Source: Mageeibacillus indolicus UPII9-5 (GTDB lineage: Bacteria; Bacillota; Clostridia; Saccharofermentanales; Fastidiosipilaceae). From it: a DNA stretch of 64,000 nt. Location: positions 1,612,001 to 1,676,000 of the forward strand of contig NC_013895.2 in NCBI RefSeq assembly GCF_000025225.2. Reading direction: 5' to 3'. The translations under genes and the position numbers were made by a program. Position 1 is the first letter of the stretch; every line of letters starts with the position of its first letter. The notes below the pieces were generated by a model, which was given only the letters and a program-made list of their open reading frames with translations, was not told where the DNA came from and did not search any database. Positions 63,273 through 64,000 of the stretch are shown piece by piece.

Positions 63273-63292
63273 AAAATCACCTCGCACGCATT

Positions 63293-63429
63293 GTTAGCAT
63301 CTGTTAACTACAATTTTAACACACGAAAATCATTTGACTATTCCCCCGCCCAAAATCGTAATAATTTTATATTTAACAAAAAAAGAATGATAACACGACA
63401 AAGTAAACTAATGCTAACATAAAGTTAGC
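63293..63429. promoter_or_regulatory. GTTAGC motif cluster between araC-type and nifH-like genes
   Basis: GTTAGC occurs at 63293-63298 (followed by ATCTGTTAAC) and in an inverted repeat GCTAAC-ATAAA-GTTAGC at 63413-63429, 28 bp before the NifH-like start. The repetition in a 185-bp divergent gap suggests operator sites, probably for the AraC-type regulator. Confidence 0.5.
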
Positions 63430-63457
63430 CAAGGCAAAGGACGGTATTTACTCTGCG

Positions 63458-64000
63458 ATGAAAAGAATTGCAATCTACGGAAAAGGCGGTATCGGTAAAT
63501 CTACCACCTCTTCTAATCTCAGTGCCGCATTGACGGAAAAAGGCCTGCAAGTGATGCAAATCGGGTGCGACCCCAAGGCTGACTCCACCAAAAATTTAAT
63601 GGGTGGGCAGCAAATTCCCACCGTTTTGGATCAGATTTCAGCTAAGGGCAGGTCCATAACACTTGACGATATCGTTTTCAAAAGCAAGACCGGCGTTTTG
63701 TGCGTTGAAGCTGGCGGCCCTGCCCCCGGTGTAGGCTGTGCCGGGCGCGGAATCATTTCCGCTTTCGAAAAACTGGAGGAACTGCACGCCTTTACCGCCT
63801 ATCACCCCGATGTCATCATTTATGATGTTTTGGGCGATGTCGTTTGCGGCGGCTTCGCCATGCCTATTCGCAGCGGTTATGCCCGCGAAGTTTATATCGT
63901 ATCTTCAGGGGAAATGATGAGTCTTTACGCCGCCCACAATATCGCTCGAGCCGTGGCAAATTTCAAGGAGCGTGGTTACGCCGAGTTGAAAGGGCTTATT
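63458..64000 (+). CDS. NifH-like nitrogenase iron protein homologue (partial)
   Basis: An open frame of 181 codons runs off the window. It carries all hallmarks of the nitrogenase iron-protein family: P-loop [17 protein letters not shown], the 4Fe-4S ligands in GVGCAGRG and GDVVCGGF, and YDVLGD. Family members pass electrons with ATP hydrolysis to a nitrogenase-like catalytic partner (NifDK, or related systems for chlorophyll, F430 or alkyl-thioether reduction). Which one is meant here cannot be told without the downstream genes. The start codon has AAAGGA about 15 bases upstream, a long spacing. The nearby AraC-type regulator and GTTAGC motifs suggest regulated expression. Confidence 0.9.

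Follow-up and report, generated by a model that had tools for sequence, protein, structure and literature searches.

An operon that begins with the last gene of the window, the 64,000-nucleotide stretch of Mageeibacillus indolicus DNA analysed here (positions 1612001-1676000 of a single 1,809,746-base contig), probably serves the use of heme under anaerobiosis, with a nitrogenase-like reductase doing the job that HmuW/ChuW does elsewhere. The original prediction held that this gene, cut off by the window edge, encodes a NifH homologue and may begin a nitrogenase-like gene cluster, whose substrate it left open. We found NifD-like and NifK-like partners and a transporter downstream, in support of such a cluster, and the substrate can now be narrowed to heme at moderate confidence.

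Results

The nifH-like gene and its operon

The complete product of the window-edge gene has 277 residues and matched PF00142 with an E-value of 2e-91, far beyond chance, which bears out its kinship with NifH. In a five-row alignment of NifH-like proteins, the P-loop GKGGIGKS, C94 in GVGCAGRG and C130 in GDVVCGGF were all invariant, so the NifH motifs and both cluster cysteines claimed from the window alone were confirmed. The protein reached none of the NCBIfam equivalog cut-offs to which it was compared (nifH, 314 of 394 bits; CfbC, 326 of 402; BchL, 205 of 345; BchX, 192 of 331). A chance frame or a pseudogene was rejected because the frames are open and conserved.

The divergent regulator of AraC type that had been proposed beside this gene was also recovered (Table 1). 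Between the two genes, arms of 18 nt at 63292-63309 and 63402-63419 are 83% complementary. The repeat core GTTAGCAT occurs at just these two places in the window, where 1.74 are expected by chance; being no rarer than chance, it weakens the case for the repeat as an AraC operator. Downstream, the operon genes are separated by short gaps or overlap, and after the flavodoxin gene an EamA gene lies on the opposite strand. A genome search showed that the FecCD permease of the operon is the only one in the genome, and the gene order of the operon is kept in relatives. Farther along the contig, beyond the window, L003:17452-19998 is a large surface-protein-like frame with a long Thr-Glu-Pro repeat array and an LPxTG-like end.

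Table 1. Genes and regulatory region of the operon. Plain numbers are window positions; an L003 position plus 62000 gives the window position.
Feature	Position	Strand	Remarks
AraC-type regulator, 229 aa	62598..63287	-	divergent from operon; PF12833 E 3.2e-20
Intergenic region between divergent genes	63288..63457	.	imperfect inverted repeat, possible operator
nifH-like gene, first 181 codons	63458..64000	+	ATG start at 63458; frame leaves window at 64000 (open-frame reading); full gene (L003:1458-2291) ends at window position 64291
Binding protein (Peripla_BP_2)	L003:2288-3433	+	beyond window
FecCD permease	L003:3448-4494	+	beyond window
ABC ATPase	L003:4512-5339	+	beyond window
nifD-like (PF00148), 459 aa	L003:5371-6750	+	beyond window
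nifK-like (PF00148), 425 aa	L003:6737-8014	+	beyond window
HmuF-like flavodoxin (Flavodoxin_3), 200 aa	L003:8077-8679	+	beyond window

The NifHDK-like enzyme and nitrogenase

NifD-like proteins were aligned with NifD references taken from three nif clusters. All three P-cluster cysteines of NifD (Cys62, 88 and 154) have their equivalents in 59 of 59 rows, and in the columns of the FeMo-co ligands (equivalents of Cys275 and His442) neither the Cys nor the His was found in any of the 59, as compared with the three NifD references. The genome contains no PF00148 gene besides the two of the operon, so NifE/NifN partners were not found, and nothing in it reaches the NifB cut-off (best 21 of 344 bits). 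Because the FeMo-co ligands are absent and neither a further PF00148 gene nor a NifB over cut-off occurs in the genome, the NifHDK-like enzyme of the operon is, judged by its residues and gene content, not a nitrogenase, and a canonical nitrogenase at the window edge was rejected. Thus, of the neighbours that the original prediction had proposed to look for downstream, NifD/NifK-like partners and a transporter are present and a NifB over cut-off is missing genome-wide; the canonical nif set that it had set against its own reading did not appear.

How, then, might the enzyme hold a metal cluster? The NifK-like proteins have no invariant cysteine. Their Cys112 is nearly invariant (58/63) and follows the third cluster site, a position taken by Ser in a profile alignment, and their PSDRMG motif carries Asp or Glu in 62 of 63 proteins. 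This pattern would most naturally be read as a single [4Fe-4S] cluster whose fourth ligand, as in DPOR, is not a cysteine, and the Asp/Glu of PSDRMG is the candidate for that ligand.

Structural models of the Murdochiella homologues are confident, with pLDDT values of 89.7 and 90.6, the latter for the NifK-like protein. In VIA-align, the first 11 rows for the NifK-like model were all DPOR, BchB being nearest (Z 35.5-36.1, rmsd 2.8-3.2 over 381-394 residues); the first row after this block had a Z of 33.4, and the BchB entry 9e7h stood at rank 26 (Z 31.6). Foldseek placed NifEN first for the same model, and its DPOR entries began at rank 10. For the NifD-like model, K subunits of iron/vanadium nitrogenase and BchB were tied in VIA-align (Z 28.4-29.6 in the first 16 rows), so that model is no help in choosing between them. 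The model thus predicts a BchB-type fold for the NifK-like protein; a common fold shows no function.

Heme-type features of the binding protein and flavodoxin

We found 57 operon binding proteins and tested 13, and IsdE was the best NCBIfam model for all 13, with scores of 68 to 246 bits that all lie under the 298.65 cut-off. The binding protein of the window's organism scored 84 bits against that cut-off of 298, and those of L084, L085 and L090 scored at least 200. IsdE was best for none of the four comparison proteins, which come from the opposite-strand systems in L063 and L088, the upstream system in L045 and the distant Sporomusa relative. The preference for IsdE does not by itself prove heme, because the L083 binding protein, which is encoded behind a cobalamin riboswitch, shows it too. 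Among 48 binding proteins, the columns that we take to be those of IsdE M78 and H229 hold Met in 32 and His in 7; both are present in L084, L085 and L090 among the binding proteins printed, and the protein of the window's organism keeps the Met and not the His. These IsdE heme ligands are named in a reference title within the excerpted part of PMC12670364.

TonB receptors are encoded near the operons of L045, L052, L055, L071 and L095, and ExbB/ExbD/TonB in L046. For the receptors of L045 and L055, hemin and B12 models were not separated and no cut-off was reached, so a choice between heme and B12 is not possible from these model scores. FRAP/NPNL-type motifs are partly present in seven receptors; such motifs are general in receptors of this kind and were therefore not used as evidence.

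A profile built from 20 of the 22 operon flavodoxins (leaving out a fragment from L049, and L051) matched the solved structure of heme-bound FldH, 8G64, with an E-value of 1.8e-29, and the next flavodoxin followed at 3.3e-7. At the position of the FldH heme ligand His134, as numbered by counting along the chain of 8G64, 19 of the 20 flavodoxins have a His; L060, the exception, has a gap. The best NCBIfam model of the operon flavodoxin is BilS, which is named for the bilirubin reductase system. Judged by its closest solved relative and the heme-ligand His, the flavodoxin is of HmuF/FldH type and is predicted to bind heme and FMN. In the excerpts of PMC10404700, FldH is a paralogue of HmuF and 8G64 is heme-bound, and HmuF, the product of the last gene of the Fusobacterium hmuTRUVWF operon, supplies HmuW with heme and reduces what HmuW makes.

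Heme-capture genes also occur beside the operon in relatives. NEAT domains lie inside the operons of L077, L082, L085, L087 and L090, a class B sortase over cut-off is encoded in that of L085, which comes from Alkaliphilus transvaalensis, and in that of L090, and L045 and L055 have a gene for the heme-binding protein ChaN. Of 41 genomes searched, 8 have NEAT matches and 33 have none. Every NEAT match of the genome falls in the operon in L082, L085, L087 and L090, which form one clade and are not independent; the NEAT-positive genomes of L032, L057, L070 and L089 have matches with no shown tie to the operon. The NEAT links come from a sister clade and Epulopiscium, require two changes on the concatenated tree and include none from the five-member clade of the window's organism, whose genome lacks NEAT; Murdochiella, its nearest relative, has NEAT genes elsewhere in the genome. 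In the window's genome the best match to radical-SAM HutW stays under the cut-off (156 of 400 bits) and ferrochelatase is missing, which fits heme as an iron source via another enzyme, without proving it.

Distribution and phylogeny of the family

NifD-like matches at an E-value of 0.001 or better occurred in 79 of 188 genomes of the same order. Below 1e-40, four genomes among the 188 had a match besides the window's own (G009, G008, G049 and G037), so close relatives are patchy within the order. A scan of named genomes, made with an alignment of NifK-like proteins, yielded 65 loci, from Murdochiella, Phascolarctobacterium, Catenibacillus, Epulopiscium, Beduini, Alkaliphilus, Dethiobacter, many Lachnospiraceae, further Clostridia and two spirochaetes; gut samples are named in many of the titles. 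Viral contigs searched with the NifK-like protein gave no relative. With the window's locus included, six core genes lie on one strand near the NifK-like gene in 51 of 66 loci, a HmuF-type flavodoxin is present in 22 and an AraC-type gene lies within 9 kb of the NifK-like gene in 25, often divergent and directly before nifH. The models used for these counts took the genes of the window's locus as seed, so more distant members may have escaped them. Among the 15 loci lacking the full six-gene set, 12 have a NifK-like match that starts no more than about 4 kb from the end of a contig; the others are L066, where the NifH-like gene is on the opposite strand, L087, where the binding protein gene is farther away, and L088, which seemingly lacks the set.

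On a concatenated tree of 61 rows made with a quick method, the window's proteins paired with those of Murdochiella (support 100) in a clade of five (100) inside a clade of 50 (100), beside which stood a clade of seven (95) with four of the NEAT loci. L083, L092, L094 and L101, the Sporomusa plasmid, were long outliers; the nifHDK-like set of the last is possibly a siderophore version of the system. The original prediction had also called for a NifH phylogeny. In it, the family did stand apart from six references, but the branch that separates it had a support of only 20 and long branches meet there, so the tree was dropped as proof of a separate clade, and it is the partners, more than NifH, that set the family apart.

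By frame reading, three loci of the same order, unlike the window's organism, carry apparent true nif clusters (L028:3952-12777, L029:5310-13842 and L030:5262-14156) with nifH, two PII-like genes, nifD, nifK and NifE/N-like genes. L031:1148-9549, in a relative, has a NifH-like gene, several NifDK-like genes and a gene whose start reads like cysteine synthase in the sequence, and is a different group IV type.

Discussion

What would such an enzyme do with heme? The binding protein of IsdE/HmuT type, the FecCD permease and the ATPase would import heme or a close iron porphyrin, and inside the cell the HmuF-type flavodoxin would bind heme and either pass it on or reduce the product. The NifH-like ATPase would spend ATP to deliver single electrons to a [4Fe-4S] cluster, which the three NifD-like cysteines would hold at the interface with the NifK-like subunit. 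Heme bound there would have its porphyrin ring reduced by this cluster, much as protochlorophyllide reductase acts on its tetrapyrrole. The ring would then lose aromaticity, and Fe2+ would be released or the ring readied for further reduction. For the window's organism we infer heme as the substrate, and likewise the type of cluster, the path of the electrons and the product. More tentatively, and with rather less assurance than for heme use itself, the family may possibly represent a further, oxygen- and radical-SAM-independent route to iron from heme, in which an ATP-driven nitrogenase-like enzyme reductively dearomatises heme. The route would be spread through anaerobic Firmicutes of gut and mucosa and also some spirochaetes, and the enzyme would then be the first nitrogenase relative to degrade a tetrapyrrole instead of building one.

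Could the imported cargo be something other than heme? In one alternative, which we consider unlikely, the operon imports a corrinoid, such as cobalamin, whose cobalt or ring is then reduced by the nitrogenase-like enzyme. It is suggested by a cobalamin riboswitch some 180 bases before nifH in L083 (L083:6467-6653; a divergent nifH-like operon with another gene order) and by a second in L045, upstream of the TonB-receptor/binding-protein pair that precedes nifH, where TonB-B12 is the best model for one receptor; the B12-binding domain PF02310 is also found in 38 of 40 related genomes searched. However, L083 branches off as a long outlier, the binding protein behind the L045 riboswitch is a different one with a best model other than IsdE, and no cobalamin riboswitch was found ahead of the operon in 64 of the 66 loci, though upstream DNA is missing in about a dozen. 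More cobalamin riboswitches in L083 and L090 lie far off on the opposite strand. Within the families searched, the window's genome contains neither PF02310 nor the adenosyltransferases PF02572 and PF01923, which makes a corrinoid role unlikely in this organism, and the genomes of L032 and L039 also lack PF02310 and PF01923. FecCD transporters widely carry siderophores, and iron might instead be freed from an imported ferric chelate by ATP-driven reduction. The Sporomusa termitida plasmid pSPTER (L101) points this way, since its NifK-like protein, 28.8% identical, is encoded near a TonB-dependent siderophore receptor, an esterase of family PF00756 and two permeases, and siderophore models score best for the binding protein there; so does L088, which seemingly lacks a transporter of its own and whose nifDK-like genes stand next to a catechol-siderophore-type system (SstD-type). 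Yet the reduction of ferric siderophores normally needs no ATP, the Sporomusa set is one of the long outliers named above, all 13 core binding proteins tested prefer IsdE and the operon includes a HmuF-type flavodoxin, which leaves a siderophore reductase a slim chance. With the cobalamin riboswitches, the SstD-type neighbour in L088 and the siderophore-linked Sporomusa relative in mind, the superfamily may serve several imported chelates, heme only in the core clades.

DPOR- and Cfb-type enzymes act on tetrapyrroles that have no redox iron in the ring, and in a heme operon the enzyme might act on a later tetrapyrrole, a free porphyrin or a bilin, and not on heme itself. The same heme evidence applies to this version, and BilS as the best flavodoxin model would suit it; but the making of an intermediate would need a heme-opening enzyme, and the genome has no HutW that passes its cut-off, nor does the operon contain any other gene known to open heme, so that the probability of this version appears small. 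An assembly role, in which a NifEN-like scaffold is tied to metal import, was suggested in passing by Dos Santos et al. 2012 (PMC3464626, in excerpt), and NifE is the best NCBIfam model of both subunits, at scores far under cut-off. In the genome no NifB passes the cut-off and a PF00148 enzyme that could be the client is missing, and the FeMo-co ligands are absent; we regard such a scaffold as highly improbable.

The preferred reading, a heme-utilisation operon, can be set against known systems. DPOR (BchL/BchN/BchB) similarly combines a NifH-type ATPase with a two-subunit enzyme lacking the FeMo cofactor, and BchB is nearest to the NifK-like model; in contrast to DPOR, the operon's proteins score below the curated BchL, BchN and BchB cut-offs and have three invariant cysteines in the NifD-like subunit and none in the NifK-like one. 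HmuT, HmuU and HmuV are a binding protein, a permease and an ATPase. The hmuTRUVWF operon of Fusobacterium nucleatum likewise joins heme-uptake genes to a central redox enzyme, with the heme-binding flavodoxin last (PMC10404700, in excerpt), whereas here NifHDK-like proteins replace the radical-SAM HmuW. The Isd system, listed as isdCDEFsrtBisdG in the excerpts of PMC12670364, shares the IsdE-like binding protein and, in relatives of the window's organism, a NEAT protein and sortase B in one operon; unlike Isd, the nine proteins of the window's cluster include no IsdG-type oxygenase, and the operon has the NifHDK-like set. CfbCD, MarHDK and IsrHDK are characterised group IV enzymes, nitrogenase-like and non-nitrogen-fixing (PMC11423573, in excerpt). 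Cfb has no NifK, whereas the operon has a NifK-like subunit and its NifH-like protein stays below the CfbC cut-off (326 of 402 bits); the Mar and Isr systems have a partner B (a radical SAM protein in Isr), and no such partner is encoded in the window's cluster of nine proteins.

As far as the excerpts of Dos Santos et al. 2012 go (PMC3464626), their light-blue clade (CLM_0808/0809 and Clos_0313/0314) has a NifE-like protein with three P-cluster cysteines and a NifN-like protein with none, adjoins NifH and an ABC ATPase, and was given no function beyond a guess at metal transport for cofactor assembly. The cysteine pattern, NifH and the ABC ATPase are common to that clade and the operon, which we liken by this description; the whole operon, its spread and the heme links described here go beyond that account. 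The word nitrogenase does not occur in a 2025 review of heme in bacterial pathogens (PMC12670364), in a 2025 HmuS paper (PMC12583661) or in the FldH paper (PMC10404700). The clade has been known since 2012, and its functional link to heme is new within the open-licence literature searched, where none of the papers listed connects a nitrogenase-like enzyme to heme use.

Heme is abundant in the gut and at blood-exposed mucosa, and how strict anaerobes without enzymes of HmuW/HmuS type use its iron is poorly known. Most of the many group IV relatives of nitrogenase have no function assigned to them. If the proposed function is true, one conserved operon would join both questions and offer a directly testable enzyme, and the nitrogenase superfamily would gain a substrate, with a catabolic tetrapyrrole reaction beside the biosynthetic ones.
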